Shown here: piece after piece, positions 15,545-19,284 of the stretch
Layout of the letters: each line of letters starts with the position of its first letter
Position numbering within the stretch: the first letter of the stretch is position 1
From: a virus
Virus record (IMG/VR): IMGVR_UViG_3300020401_000101
Location: 1 to 22,847 of that record
Reading direction: 5' to 3' (one strand)
Length of the DNA: 22,847 bases
Notes under the pieces: generated by a model
The model's database searches: none
Told to the model about the DNA's origin: nothing
The model's input: only the letters and a program-made list of their open reading frames with translations
Made by a program: the position numbers and the translations under genes

Positions 15545-16033
15545 TTAGAATGCAGAAGGAGCTGTAGCACCTACGTACAATTCAACAGCAGCAGCTGGGT
15601 TTAGGTAATCTGCCCCCATAGCCATGCGTCCCAATATAACATCACCTTGGTATATAACCGAGACATCTCCATTGGTTACTTGGACTTGTGGTCCGATTGC
15701 CTCAACAACTCCAGCAGCTTCTTTTTGGAAAATTAAACCAGCAGACTTAGCCCCTAACTCAGCGTTAGTACCGTAGTCGTTGTTTACTCCGCCAGTAGCA
15801 TTAGCGTTTTCTGGTGTAGGTCCAATGAAATCACCAAGATTTCCAGGACTTGTTTCACCTGTTGTACCGCCGTACTTAACACCATACTTACCTAAGAATG
15901 GAATATTCATAGATTTGTAGATGTGTATTCCAGCAATTTCGATAACGCCACTACCACCTTGTAAAGCAGTACCCTGTACGTCTCTGTTTACTAATCCGTT
16001 AGAACCAATGTCCTGAATTAGTGCATAATATTG
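15545..16033 (-). CDS. Major capsid protein, exon 2 (C-terminal part)
   Basis: These 162 codons plus stop encode the C-terminal part of the T7 gp10-like capsid protein. The exon begins at CAA (QYYALIQDIGSNGLVNRDVQ), which lines up with the T7 capsid segment SPDQYSALL. Later parts (GIHIYKSMNIPFLGK; VGTVAAVE-like end LNPAAAVELYVGATAPSAF) fit the family, where the IP/P-domain region precedes a short C-terminus. The frame can be read back to a TTG at 16036, but those bases belong to the intron 3' end, so this is not a separate gene. Spliced to exon 1 (16231..16860) it gives about 372 residues, the normal size for this family. A strong terminator follows. Confidence 0.9.
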   Translation of the reverse strand, partial: QYYALIQDIGSNGLVNRDVQGTALQGGSGVIEIAGIHIYKSMNIPFLGKYGVKYGGTTGETSPGNLGDFIGPTPENANATGGVNNDYGTNAELGAKSAGLIFQKEAAGVVEAIGPQVQVTNGDVSVIYQGDVILGRMAMGADYLNPAAAVELYVGATAPSAF

Positions 16034-16230
16034 CAATTTGGACTATATCATCATCCTATAAGGATGTCGGACGCTATTCATGTATTACGCACTACGTTCT
16101 TAGTGCTCCATGTAGTCTCTGAACCTTCCCTTCAAGCGTGAAGGGCTTGGCTGCTGATTGGGTATAAACCGTTCCAGCAATTCATCCGATTATTCGATCA
16201 AGATTACTCTTGAAAGCCGCCAATATGTTA
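16034..16230 (-). ncRNA. Group I intron (group IA-like, no ORF) in the major capsid gene
   Basis: This 197-nt element splits an otherwise continuous capsid frame. P1: exon CCGU|UAA pairs with UUGGCGG (U·G at the splice site). P2: 16213..16198, UCAAGA-GUAA-UCUUGA with a GNRA loop. P3: 16189..16183 with 16073..16067. P4: UGCUG/CAGCA. P5: GGU/ACC. P6a: 16145..16128, seven pairs. P7: GACUA (16117..16113) with UAGUC (16045..16041) inside the classic UUCAGAGACUA and AUAUAGUCC elements. A GCACUA/UAGUGC hairpin sits between P7 5' and P3 3', the P7.1/P7.2 position typical of subgroup IA. P8: 16066..16052. P10: intron AUAUUG (16226..16221) pairs perfectly with the first six bases of exon 2. The intron ends in G at 16034, as required. 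No endonuclease gene lies inside. Confidence 0.93.
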
Positions 16231-16860
16231 ACGGGGGTTTAGTACAGCACATCTACCATCAGTGCTAACTCCTTTTTCATCTAAAGCAGCAGCAGCATCA
16301 TAGAATGCGTTTACTAGGTTTCCAGCGTTAAAAGCATCAGATTCGTTAGTTGTAGAACCAACTCTGATTTGTGTTCCACCAGGCTCTTCAAAGTTTGTTG
16401 CAGATACTGGAGATGCAGATCTAGCTCCTCGTGTAATAGAACGGAAGATTAGTCTGTCATATTTCTCAGCAAGAGCATATCCAATCTTCTTAGATATTTC
16501 TCCTCTCAATTCATAATGTGCAAGTGTCTCATCTAAGTCATAAACAAAAGCTGAACTGATTAATAGATCGTCCATTACGATTGTTTTTTCTGCGACTGGA
16601 GGAGCCTTGTCAGCATTTCCAAGTATGGGGGTTCCAGGTGTGTGGAACGAACTTGTCATGCGTCCAGTGTAGATAAACTGCAATGATTTGCCGTTCTTTA
16701 AGGTTCTCTTAGTAACGAGATCTCTAGCGATAGTCTCGTGTTGGAAGCCTTTGAACATTTCCCCACTGAACAATTTTAAGTACAAATTATACTTATCATT
16801 GTAGCCAGTACCAGTCGCTAAATTTGAGCGACCTAAACTGACCTGATTAGCATTAGCCAT
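16231..16860 (-). CDS. Major capsid protein, exon 1 (N-terminal part)
   Basis: These 210 codons start at ATG 16860 (MANANQVSLGRSNLATGTGY). The body has the T7 gp10-like HK97-fold N-terminus: KLFSGEMFKGFQHETIARDL, KNGKSLQFIYTGR, TPGTPILGN, and MDDLLISSAFVYDLDETLAHYELR, then KIGYALAEKYDRLIFRSI. It ends at CGT (Arg210); the following TAA is the first intron triplet, so the apparent stop at 16230..16228 is removed by splicing. The frame joins to Gln of exon 2 at 16033. The protein assembles the icosahedral shell around the scaffold. No good Shine-Dalgarno precedes the ATG (AACTGAAAAA). Confidence 0.92.
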
Positions 16861-17031
16861 TTTTTCAGTTAAAAATTAAAGATATATTTACGTGTCTTGT
16901 CGTACGAAAAGTTGCGAGTCTTATGCGACTCTTTTGTTATGTGGTCTATCCCACCGTCATGACGGCTGATGAGTATCCTCGTAAGGGTCAAAAGCCAAAT
17001 TGAGTAGGGAGGACTTGCACCTCCCAGATCA
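16861..17031 (-). other. Structured spacer upstream of the capsid gene
   Basis: No gene is supported in this stretch. Read on the minus strand it contains a hairpin GGGAGG-TGCAAGT-CCTCCC (17025..17007), whose six-pair stem and seven-base loop look like a tRNA T-arm. It also holds CCT-UACG-AGG, a perfect 12-base palindrome CCGTCATGACGG (16965..16954), and GAGTC-GCATAA-GACTC. It forms the leader of the capsid mRNA or the 3' tail of the psbA mRNA. I see no full tRNA, no U-run terminator on this strand and no convincing promoter. Confidence 0.5.
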
Positions 17032-17088
17032 CTATTTCTTGATTACTCTTGTGTAAGCAATGCCACGATATACGTAAGTTACTTGCAT
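17032..17088 (-). CDS. 18-residue YRG-type mini-protein downstream of psbA
   Basis: The 18-codon frame reads MQVTYVYRGIAYTRVIKK. The VxYVYRGIAY core resembles the short YRG motif of the cyanobacterial DUF4278 family, and I recall similar tiny peptides in other cyanophages. GGAG lies six bases before the ATG, a better ribosome site than at any upstream in-frame ATG; the frame is open back to ATG 17133, giving 33 residues, and another ATG lies at 17100. It sits 78 nt after the psbA stop, within a structured spacer. The function is unknown. A coincidental frame is possible given the length. Confidence 0.5.
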   Translation of the reverse strand: MQVTYVYRGIAYTRVIKK

Positions 17089-17103
17089 AGTAAGCTCCAT
17101 ATA

Positions 17104-17127
17104 CCTAAGCCCCGTTCCATGCTTAGG
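17104..17127 (-). other. Hairpin in the psbA 3' untranslated region
   Basis: CCTAAGC and GCTTAGG form a perfect seven-pair stem with a ten-base loop (ATGGAACGGG), about 40 nt after the psbA stop. A smaller hairpin TCCC-TTAC-GGGA (17148..17137) precedes it. Neither is followed by a U-run, so they look more like mRNA-stabilising or processing structures than intrinsic terminators. That role is inference. Confidence 0.5.
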
Positions 17128-17166
17128 ATTCATGCGTCCCGTAAGGGATGAACGGACGTGACAGTA

Positions 17167-18201
17167 TTATGCTAAATCTAATGGGAAGTTATGTGCGTTA
17201 CGCTCATGCATAACTTCGAAACCTAAGTTTTGTCTGTTGACTATGTCAGCCCATGTTGGAATAACTTTACCGTTAGCGTCAACAACTGACTGGTTAAAGT
17301 TAAAACCATTTAAGTTGAATGCCATAGTAGCTATGCCCATAGAGGTAAGCCATATGCCAACCACGGGGAGAACAGCCAGAAAGAAGTGTAGAGAGCGAGA
17401 ATTGTTAAAACTTGCATATTGGAAAAGTAAACGTCCGAAGTAGCCGTGAGCCGCAACGATGTTATATGTCTCCTCTTCCTGTCCAAACTTATAACCATAG
17501 TTCTGAGCTTCCAATGCAGTCGTCTCTTTAATGAGAGAAGATGTAACCAAACTTCCGTGCATAGCAGCGGCAAGAGCACCACCGAATACGCCAAGAACAC
17601 CGAGCATATGGAAAGGATGCATAAGGATATTATGTTCTGCCTGAAATACAAACATAAAGTTAAAAGTACCAGAAATACCAAGAGGCATACCATCACTGAA
17701 ACTCCCCTGACCGAAAGGGTAGACAAGAAATACAGCGAATGCTGCTGACACTGGTGCAGAGTAAGCTACTGCTATCCAGGGTCTCATCCCTAATCTGTAA
17801 CTAAGTTCCCATTGTCGTCCCATGTAAGCAGAGACACCGATGAGGAAATGGAATACGATGAGCTGATATGGTCCACCGTTGTAGAGCCATTCATCAAGGG
17901 TTCCCGCTTCCCAGATTGGATAGAAGTGCAAACCGATTGCGTTTGATGATGGGACAACTGCCCCTGAGATGATGTTGTTTCCATAGAGTAATGAGCCAGA
18001 AACTGGTTCACGTATCCCATCTATGTCAACAGGAGGTGCAGCTATAAAGGCGATAATAAAACATGTTGCAGCTGTAAGTAATGCAGGGATCATAAGAACA
18101 CCAAACCATCCAACATATAATCTGTTGTCTGTTGATGTAACCCACTTACATAACTCTTGCCACTTATTGGTTGTTTCTCTACTAATTGAGATTGCAGCCA
18201 T
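17167..18201 (-). CDS. psbA: Photosystem II D1 protein
   Basis: At 344 residues it aligns without gaps to cyanobacterial D1, so standard numbering applies. Tyr161 (YZ), Asp170 (SFSDGM), Glu189, His190, His198, His215, and the C-terminal Mn-cluster ligands His332, Glu333, His337, Asp342 and Ala344 are all present ([14 protein letters not shown]). The five transmembrane helices are intact. D1 carries the primary photochemistry and is damaged by light; phage copies are known to be expressed during infection to keep host photosynthesis running. Unusually, translation ends at Ala344, the mature C-terminus, so the C-terminal extension normally removed by CtpA is absent. The gene has visibly higher G+C than neighbouring genes, consistent with host origin. 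No intron interrupts it and no strong Shine-Dalgarno is seen before the ATG. Confidence 0.98.
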
Positions 18202-18287: not shown

Positions 18288-18446
18288 TTATTTTTTTCTT
18301 TTCTTTGCAGTTTTTGCTGCTCTTTTAAAGTTTGCAGCTGTAGGTGCTCCAGATGTACCAGGCTTTCTCATTTTTTCTCCTGATCCAGCAGCTATTCTTT
18401 TTCTCTTTGCATGAATGTTTGCATAGAGTCCACGTTTAGCGGGCAT
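18288..18446 (-). CDS. Small basic protein, MPAKRGLYANI family
   Basis: This is a 52-residue, very basic protein starting MPAKRGLYANIHAKRKRIAA. It continues with GSGEKMRKPGTSGAPTAANF and a Lys-rich tail. I recognise the pattern (RGLY.NI.AKR.RI.AGSGEKMRKPGS.GAPTA..F) as recurrent in marine phage genomes near capsid or scaffold genes, but know of no function. It starts inside the end of the 22-codon gene before it (11-nt overlap, different frame). Composition suggests nucleic acid contact, for example with packaged DNA; that is speculation. Confidence 0.8.
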   Translation of the reverse strand: MPAKRGLYANIHAKRKRIAAGSGEKMRKPGTSGAPTAANFKRAAKTAKKRKK

Positions 18447-18504
18447 ACTTCTTTCCTCCTTTTTTCATTCCTTTTTTACAGGAACCTTTTGATTTGTGTG
18501 CCAT
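18436..18504 (-). CDS. 22-residue Lys-rich mini-protein
   Basis: The frame MAHKSKGSCKKGMKKGGKKYAR starts with a TAATG overlap on the preceding 80-residue gene and ends 11 nt inside the following one. Nearly half the residues are Lys or Arg and it has one Cys. The tight overlaps on both sides support real translation, and the GGAGGAAAG near its 3' end provides the ribosome site for the next gene. It could therefore exist mainly to couple translation. I do not recognise the product. Confidence 0.55.
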   Translation of the reverse strand: MAHKSKGSCKKGMKKGGKKYAR

Positions 18505-18746
18505 TAGCATTTCCATCTTCTTCTTGCTTTCCTTAATCTGCTGTTTGGATCTTTAGCAGCTTTTGGAAATTTTTTCATTTGCCCTGCACTTCTCGCACAG
18601 TATGATTTTTTTCTAGGACCACCACCAGGCTGTGGAGCCTTTAGGTTCGATCCTGTTTCTCTATTAATTTTTTCTCGACCAGCTTTTGTTAAGCCACCTT
18701 TTCTACTCTTATGCTTTCCTATTTTTAGGCTTACGTTTTTTGCCAT
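18504..18746 (-). CDS. Small basic protein, probably DUF6321 family
   Basis: This 80-residue protein has the pattern KSRKGGLTKAGREKINRETGS, then LKAPQPGGGPRKKSYCARSAGQMKK and a terminal KDPNSRLRKARRRWKC. I recognise the RKGGLT.AGR...R.TG / CAR / DPNSR...RRWKC arrangement from small proteins of marine phages, which I believe are catalogued as DUF6321. The name is from memory and the role is unknown. Its two conserved Cys residues (mid-protein and C-terminal) might bind metal or crosslink. The start at ATG 18746 overlaps the previous gene by 38 nt in another frame, and the stop is a TAATG junction. Confidence 0.8.
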   Translation of the reverse strand: MAKNVSLKIGKHKSRKGGLTKAGREKINRETGSNLKAPQPGGGPRKKSYCARSAGQMKKFPKAAKDPNSRLRKARRRWKC

Positions 18747-18855
18747 TAGACTTCATTGCTCTAAGTTTTGCTAAATCGTCTGAACCGATTTTTTTCTTGT
18801 TACCAGCTAAAGAAGCTAATCCTTTTTGTTTAGCTGAATACTTTGAATAAGGCAT
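18709..18855 (-). CDS. Small basic protein, MPYSKYS family
   Basis: This is a 48-residue protein starting MPYSKYSAKQKGLASLAGNK, followed by KKIGSDDLAKLRAMK and a Lys/Arg-rich tail (GKKRKPKNRKA). The MPY.KYS.KQK.LA start is, to my recollection, recurrent in cyanophage and pelagiphage small proteins of unknown function. The ATG directly follows the hli TAA with no gap. It is strongly positively charged. No ribosome site beyond the coupled context is evident. Confidence 0.78.
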   Translation of the reverse strand: MPYSKYSAKQKGLASLAGNKKKIGSDDLAKLRAMKSNGKKRKPKNRKA

Positions 18856-18990
18856 TTATAAAATTCCTGGAATTATTTGTCCTGTAAAAACGTATGCTCC
18901 AATAGCAGCTATTACTCCTATCATTGCGAGACGGCCATTTAGCTCTTCAGCTACATGCCATGAGTCATTATCGTGGTTGTGATTTGTCAT
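18856..18990 (-). CDS. hli: High-light-inducible protein (Hli, one-helix chlorophyll-binding)
   Basis: This is a 44-residue protein. Residues 16-25, ELNGRLAMIG, are the chlorophyll-binding signature of high-light-inducible and light-harvesting-like proteins. They continue as a single transmembrane helix (VIAAIGAYVFTGQIIPGIL). The short polar N-terminus (NHNHDND) is typical of phage copies. Hli proteins sit in the thylakoid membrane, bind chlorophyll and carotenoid, and protect photosystem II or help D1 turnover under excess light. Pairing with psbA 650 nt downstream fits a joint photoprotective function during infection. The gene lies 4 nt after the previous stop and abuts the next start. Confidence 0.95.
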   Translation of the reverse strand: MTNHNHDNDSWHVAEELNGRLAMIGVIAAIGAYVFTGQIIPGIL

Positions 18991-18994
18991 TGTT

Positions 18995-19141
18995 CTATGG
19001 TTTGAATTGTGGACCTACGCCAGCTTGTACGCATCTACCTTTGTCTTTATCAAAGTAAAAACCAGAAGGACACTTAACTTGACGTTTTGACTGTTTACCT
19101 TTTGGTAGTTTTTGTGGTTCTCTTAGTGTTGTGTATTCCAT
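18995..19141 (-). CDS. 48-residue two-cysteine protein of unknown function
   Basis: The frame starts with a TAATG overlap on the 47-residue gene upstream and ends in TAG. The product has a basic N-terminal half (LREPQKLPKGKQSKRQVK) and then a CPSGFYFDKDKGRC motif with two Cys 13 apart. The layout CPxGxxxDxxxGxC resembles Cys-rich extracellular knot fragments, but one pair is not enough to name a family. It sits between scaffold and hli. I do not recognise it. Confidence 0.72.
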   Translation of the reverse strand: MEYTTLREPQKLPKGKQSKRQVKCPSGFYFDKDKGRCVQAGVGPQFKP

Positions 19142-19284
19142 TAGAAATTATCTCCAAAGGCTTTTTTGATAGCTGCGTTTCTTGCATCTACAGCTCTTAC
19201 ATATCGAGAAGCTGGAGAAACATTTTTTTTATTTGTAAGTTTTTTTTTAACTTTTGCTAAAACTTTTCTTCTTAATTTTTCCAT
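19141..19284 (-). CDS. 47-residue basic protein of unknown function
   Basis: The ATG overlaps the scaffold stop (TAATG) and the stop overlaps the next start the same way. The product begins MEKLRRKVLAKVKKKLTNKK, a strongly basic amphipathic helix-like segment. It ends with ASRYVRAVDARNAAIKKAFGDNF. The chain of stop/start overlaps argues that it is translated together with scaffold. Function not recognised; charge is compatible with DNA or scaffold (acidic protein) contact, which is only inference. Confidence 0.75.
   Translation of the reverse strand: MEKLRRKVLAKVKKKLTNKKNVSPASRYVRAVDARNAAIKKAFGDNF

Follow-up and report, generated by a model that had tools for sequence, protein, structure and literature searches.

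A predicted Glutamine-II riboswitch and a tRNA-like capsid-leader module in the psbA–capsid spacer of T7-like cyanophages

Two linked RNA units between psbA and the capsid gene

The spacer between psbA and the major capsid gene of an uncultivated virus (IMG/VR record IMGVR_UViG_3300020401_000101, of which positions 1 to 22,847 were analysed, i.e., a 22,847-nt stretch referred to as the window) consists of two linked units on the psbA–capsid transcript. The first is a predicted Glutamine-II riboswitch, recognised by homology, that would control a micropeptide, and the second is a putative capsid-leader element with a tRNA-like module, the structure of which is supported by covariation. Since the riboswitch and its peptide ORF were missed in the original prediction of a structured RNA region, the coordinates given there in fact enclose both functional units. 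As far as the open-licence literature was searched, no account of the leader element with its tRNA-like module was found. The features are as follows:

16861-17166, psbA–capsid intergenic spacer, 306 nt; all structured elements read on the minus strand
17167..18201 (-), psbA, the upstream gene (ORF list; tblastn to P-SSP7 psbA)
15545..16860 (-), major capsid gene, downstream (ORFs; similarity to annotated capsid genes)
17104..17157 (-), Glutamine-II (Downstream-peptide) riboswitch aptamer (49.4 bits with Rfam RF01704, the gathering threshold being 33)
17032..17088 (-), ORF of the 18-aa YRG peptide MQVTYVYRGIAYTRVIKK (translation)
17002..17048 (-), tRNA-like structure without anticodon arm (local minimum-free-energy (MFE) fold; acceptor covariation in 59 loci)
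16940..16999 (-), conserved capsid-leader element, 60 nt (covariance model R1; covariation)
16916..16931 (-), GAGTC-GCATAA-GACTC hairpin (fold; in many, not all, relatives)
16900..16907 (-), short perfect palindrome TCGTACGA, 8 nt (palindromes of relatives at the same place)

Among cultured phages, the T7-like cyanophages P-SSP7, P-SSP3, P-SSP2, and P-GSP1 are the closest relatives and share the gene order, and in P-SSP7 the corresponding gap likewise measures 306 nt and is the longest interior one. The spacer had been called long for this genome, and it is indeed the longest coding-strand intergenic gap of the window except for 18747-19283, which smaller ORFs fill. The surrounding region from psbA to a scaffold-like gene (18288-19284, minus strand) holds several small ORFs, some of them strongly basic, and by eye the ORF at 18856-18990 resembles a high-light-inducible protein.

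Both flanking genes have features of their own. The capsid gene is split by a group I intron (16020-16240, minus strand; Rfam RF00028, 89.2 bits), and another locus (L007) carries a group I intron at the same place of its capsid gene (1221-1441). The psbA product of the window ends in ...HNFPLDLA, the mature D1 end, without the C-terminal extension of ca. 15 aa encoded by P-SSP7 and most relatives; seven such instances were found among the sequences scanned, the window and duplicates counted. In P-SSP7 (L001, 1654-1773) a 39-aa ORF (PSSP7_028; phrog_28543) lies between psbA and the riboswitch, and the spacer of the window has no room for an ORF of this type.

Structure and strand of the spacer

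The spacer proved to be packed with structured RNA as claimed, and every feature listed in the original prediction could be located. The seven-pair stem CCTAAGC/GCTTAGG (17127-17121 with 17110-17104) corresponds to the second hairpin of the Glutamine-II aptamer, and the T-arm-like hairpin GGGAGG-TGCAAGT-CCTCCC (17025-17007) belongs to the tRNA-like structure. The UACG mini-hairpin was found at 16986-16977, the 12-base palindrome CCGTCATGACGG at 16965-16954, and the GAGTC/GACTC pair at 16931-16916.

Compared with shuffled sequences, the spacer folded well on the minus strand (z of -2.40) and on the plus strand (z of -2.35), with 2 of 100 shuffles being as good on each. Because both strands beat the shuffles, folding energy by itself neither establishes a structure nor distinguishes the strands; the comparative data accomplish both. 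The covariation analysis proposed at the outset was positive for the acceptor stem of the tRNA-like structure and for hairpin P1 of the capsid-leader element, with shuffles, slid partners and swaps as the only controls.

An antisense or independent small RNA transcribed from the plus strand would fit the good folding of that strand, and an antisense RNA of the kind reported across psbA in S-PM2 had been put forward as a precedent. However, the riboswitch, the peptide ORF, the T-loop and the UACG loops are all carried by the minus strand, and the stems of the alternative hairpins that replace the tRNA-like structure in other phages show 31 G-U pairs when read as capsid-sense RNA versus only 2 A-C pairs (which would be G-U if antisense), a ratio that speaks against the antisense suggestion and makes any plus-strand RNA exceedingly unlikely.

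Several other candidates were dismissed. The GAGTC/GACTC hairpin looks like a terminator on the plus strand only. A hammerhead-like plus-strand stretch (CTGATGAG) is attributed to chance, with no hammerhead match up to E 5, a CTGATGA that is unconserved in relatives, and no GAA box by eye. The blv_FSE frameshift family matched the plus-strand T-arm hairpin at 20.9 bits, below its cut-off of 34 (E 0.18), and ARAGORN, which also seeks tmRNA, revealed no permuted tmRNA in the window.

A predicted Glutamine-II riboswitch ahead of a short peptide ORF

The riboswitch begins 9 nt past the psbA stop codon and lies in the 5′UTR of the YRG peptide ORF, the ATG of which has a GGAG sequence 6 nt ahead of it. 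To assess its distribution, 39 distinct psbA–capsid spacers shorter than 700 nt were taken from 80 IMG/VR capsid-protein loci together with P-SSP7, P-SSP3, P-GSP1 and the window, and a paired riboswitch core plus YRG ORF was present in 38 of them, L054 being without the core. The same locus was the exception among 20 related loci scanned with Rfam, 19 of which scored at or above the RF01704 gathering threshold. The YRG peptides come in two forms, i.e., a short one (MKVTFVYRGVAYTRVIG) and one of 32 aa. The latter is weakly similar to the beginning of DUF4278 (E 0.008, short of the curated cut-off), and the 18-aa peptide of the window itself had no Pfam match.

This arrangement agrees with that of the known Glutamine-II class (Downstream-peptide, RF01704; yfr6 leader), in which an above-gathering aptamer is followed by a short peptide ORF; for the cyanobacterial Downstream-peptide motif, a short ORF encoding a peptide of 17-32 aa after the aptamer has been reported by Weinberg and colleagues (PMC2864571). 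It differs in being phage-borne and placed 9 nt after psbA, in that the 3′ end of the ORF runs inside a tRNA-like structure, and in having the capsid gene next. A cyanophage riboswitch putatively controlling psbA was reported earlier (PMC9004378), and glutamine riboswitches are reported to be present in T4-like cyanophages (PMC9602691), so that the occurrence of a glutamine riboswitch in a cyanophage already has precedents.

When contexts upstream of the capsid-leader element were surveyed, Glutamine-II cores were found in 78 of the 114 with enough sequence, indicating that the capsid leader is independent of the riboswitch.

A tRNA-like structure without an anticodon arm

Downstream of the riboswitch, the acceptor strands GAGTA (17048-17044) and TACTC (17006-17002) flank the T-arm hairpin and a D-like arm of four pairs (ATCA/TGAT). 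When this 47-nt stretch was folded alone, its MFE structure consisted of exactly the acceptor, the D-like arm and the T-arm (-13.7 kcal/mol, z of -2.17). The fold thus has the acceptor, D-like arm and T-arm of a tRNA-like structure at an mRNA boundary, as in a t-element, subject to the folding energies in context given below. The acceptor/T-arm stack amounts to 11 bp, not 12. ARAGORN did not call the structure of the window as a tRNA, and Rfam returned no tRNA family in the spacer and no mascRNA-menRNA (RF01684) match in the window, both up to E 5.

A free MAFFT alignment misplaced the acceptor by 1-3 bases, and no pairs were counted on it; pairing was therefore scored per locus with a swap control. 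All five acceptor pairs formed in 44 of 59 non-tRNA loci, whereas 2000 swaps gave 15.0 such loci on average and never more than 24. More than 10 different acceptor sequences occurred among these 59 loci, with covarying pairs such as GAGTA/TACTC, GATAA/TTATC, GAATA/TATTC, GATTA/TAATC, GGTAA/TTACC, GCTAA/TTAGC, CTGAA/TTCAG and GTAAA/TTTAC. The D-like arm is weakly supported by an excess over shuffles, as 45 of the 47 distinct cases had a hairpin of at least four pairs on the 5′ side of the T-arm vs. ca. 53% of shuffles.

The acceptor helix had a low probability when folded in a 170-nt context (mean of 0.13 over 53 loci; 0.03 in the window), which is a real weakness of the tRNA-like reading, although the energy model omits coaxial stacking, protein binding and translation. 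The acceptor was part of the local MFE structure in 23 of the 53 loci, and the T-arm reached a probability of 0.94. In the window, the helix competing with the acceptor is a hairpin within the peptide coding region.

A conserved element at the head of the capsid message

Directly 3′ of the tRNA-like structure lies the capsid-leader element, which is composed of an interrupted hairpin (P1) with a UACG loop, an 8-nt palindrome (GTCATGAC), and a hairpin GTGG-GATAGA-CCAC. Its ungapped seed alignment comprised 18 sequences, and nine truncated instances were left out of the core set. In the seed, 97.9% of the cells were paired and six pairs changed on both sides. Such double changes affected 37 cells, whereas shuffles gave 12.4 and slid versions no more than 8. 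RNAalifold recovered the same P1 and terminal hairpin unprompted. The paired columns of the palindrome and the last hairpin are invariant in the seed and hence give no covariation signal either way. The folding energy of the element is ordinary (z of -1.05), and its unpaired positions are under strong sequence constraint.

Model R1 matched the window at 62.1 bits (E 1.1e-12), and Rfam gave no match to the element on the minus strand up to E 5. Over 68 sources, the model yielded 62 full matches, all of them at the same position, in addition to a truncated match in L037 and a weak one (13.6 bits) in Syn5; the remaining four sources, which have no upstream flank, gave none. In the alignment of the R1 matches, which is fitted to the model, 35 cells changed on both sides vs. 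at most 14 in slid versions.

By BLAST, the element was present in 34 cyanopodovirus records (3 of the 37 listed being unrelated short matches), including S-RIP1, S-RIP2, S-TIP37, S-SBP1, S-B28, P-SSP6, P-SSP10, and NATL1A-7. A pattern scan of genome contigs gave matches that, among those listed, were mostly due to chance, with the full element in one (L209) of the 80 loci examined. This contig is labelled as a Dehalococcoidia MAG and is probably a misbinned cyanophage contig.

T7 possesses a gene 10 leader and RNase III processing sites, and the present element resembles the former in that a T7-like phage again places a structured leader ahead of its major capsid gene. Together with the tRNA-like structure, the element might be read mainly as a translational or stability leader of the capsid mRNA that involves no cleavage. 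In line with this, among at least 80 IMG/VR pattern loci the capsid start lay ca. 50-165 nt downstream in all 76 that could be tested (the other four ending at a contig edge), and the element occurs once per phage (once in P-SSP7), with its unpaired positions constrained as described above. Such a leader would nevertheless leave unexplained why real tRNAs, tRNA-like structures and a fixed-loop hairpin interchange just 5′ of the element (see below), and we consider it possible but doubtful.

The conserved DNA could alternatively be a transcription signal, i.e., a binding site of the phage RNA polymerase or a host promoter for the capsid gene. T7-type phages have a strong promoter ahead of the capsid gene, and a AATATACC-like stretch and palindromes are situated just before the start codon. 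However, a single copy per phage is unlike a repeated promoter set, and the stems change sequence yet keep pairing, with UACG-type loops on one strand. Moreover, exact copies of the Syn5 promoter, reported as ATTGGGCACCCGTAA (PMC3950665), were absent from P-SSP7 and from the 21 kb of Syn5 covered (15-36 kb). A promoter is thus quite unlikely to account for the element.

Changing palindromes before the capsid start

Downstream of the element (16861-16939 in the window), 97 of the 129 stretches compared among the relatives (75%) contained a perfect palindrome of 10 nt or more vs. 10.6% of shuffles, and 57 different palindromes of all lengths were counted before the capsid start. Self-complementarity extends even to their centres, a property for which the loop of an ordinary hairpin has no need. 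The palindromes may be due to template-switch repair, which acts on quasi-palindromes, or may serve RNA pairing between two copies.

Interchangeable modules in the slot before the element

Distinct contexts upstream of the element numbered 126, of which 67 had a T-arm and 50 a hairpin; one further context fitted no class, and the remaining eight lacked sufficient length. The slot is occupied by one of three modules, i.e., the tRNA-like structure, a fixed-loop hairpin, or a real tRNA. The 10-bp hairpin class has a near-invariant loop (CACCTCAGAGTCGGA), and its stems span 9-12 bp in 48 of the 50 cases; in 40, the stem end is 0-1 nt away from the TTGG that follows. Eight of the 67 T-arm contexts are tRNA genes or close likenesses thereof; ARAGORN called four (L055, L087, L093, and L144). 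The other four (L059, L141, L142, and L161) are tRNA-Gly(TCC)-like with a reduced D region, and were uncalled. Each of the three module types therefore presents a stem of ca. 10-12 bp ending beside the same element.

The presence of real tRNA-Gly(TCC) and tRNA-Leu genes at this place in some phages is also what would be expected if the tRNA-like structure were a functionless remnant, i.e., a decaying tRNA gene or attachment site. However, acceptor pairing is kept through many double changes, and the structure is retained even among phages whose capsids share as little as ca. 51-60% identity, rendering decay very unlikely.

Syn5 has no psbA at this place and no close sequence similarity, and its capsid gene is again preceded by a tRNA-like structure. 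In Rfam, this structure matched mascRNA-menRNA best (23.4 bits, E 0.012), below the cut-off of 42.5.

A candidate tRNA-type processing site

The fact that a tRNA, a tRNA-like structure and a hairpin replace one another at a constant site ahead of the message suggests a shared processing enzyme. The best explanation of the second unit, to which we assign about an even chance, is that it constitutes a tRNA-type processing site that releases the capsid mRNA with a structured 5′ end. Either RNase P of the host or a nuclease acting on tRNA 3′ ends (RNase Z or E), or both, would recognise the stacked acceptor/T-arm top half and cut the polycistronic RNA, setting the psbA/peptide message apart from that of the capsid. 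After this cut, the capsid mRNA would start at or near UUUGG with the structured element at its 5′ end, where the element may protect from RNase E or aid translation. In other phages, a real tRNA or the 10-bp fixed-loop hairpin would fill the same slot. Of the earlier proposal of a functional RNA, for example an element processing or stabilising the transcript between psbA and the capsid gene, the functional RNA is thus upheld by covariation, and the processing step is one that we infer. Counting against processing, an RNase P cut at the acceptor would take off the stop codon of the peptide.

Comparable systems are known. Bacterial RNase P is reported to cleave non-tRNA substrates including mRNAs and tRNA-like RNAs, and the MALAT1 mascRNA to be released by RNase P and Z (PMC4919922), while the t-elements of plant mitochondria are described as being cut by RNase P and RNase Z (PMC8003010, PMC11658184). 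Host RNase E was reported to increase in P-SSP7 infection (PMC10989914). Like t-elements, the present module is a tRNA-like structure between genes of a polycistronic RNA, but it belongs to a phage with host bacterial enzymes, has no anticodon arm, and is a putative cleavage substrate. It shares with mascRNA/menRNA (RF01684) a small tRNA-like structure at a transcript boundary, whereas those RNAs stem from an animal long noncoding RNA context; the counterpart in Syn5 scored below cut-off and the window gave no match. In contrast to the RNase III processing sites of T7, the module is tRNA-like and not an RNase III hairpin, and the likeness to T7 lies in the structured leader and its place.

A possible glutamine-gated coupling of both units

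The last codons of the peptide and its stop codon form the acceptor and the D-like arm. In 53 of 58 tRNA-like contexts the YRG stop codon fell inside the acceptor/D region, the other five being without such an ORF in the 120 nt checked, whereas no stop overlap occurred in the 50 contexts of the hairpin class (10 with a stop before it and 40 with no ORF in the stretch). This location of the stop codon led to the speculative and rather unlikely idea of a glutamine-gated mRNA cleavage switch, in which the riboswitch would set YRG translation, the ribosome would unfold the tRNA-like structure, and nitrogen status would decide on the RNase P cut and the amount of capsid. The overlap could also be explained by the packing of a compact genome.

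Podoviruses infecting Prochlorococcus and Synechococcus abound in the oceans, and the findings bear on how they separate psbA from the late structural genes and sense host nutrition. If the processing reading is true, these phages would possess a phage version of tRNA punctuation, conserved between the podoviruses of Prochlorococcus and those of Synechococcus, with Syn5 carrying a diverged form. If the coupling is true as well, host nitrogen status, in the form of glutamine, would govern psbA–capsid cleavage and capsid output. Whether nitrogen controls late expression in these phages can now be tested directly in cultured members such as P-SSP7.
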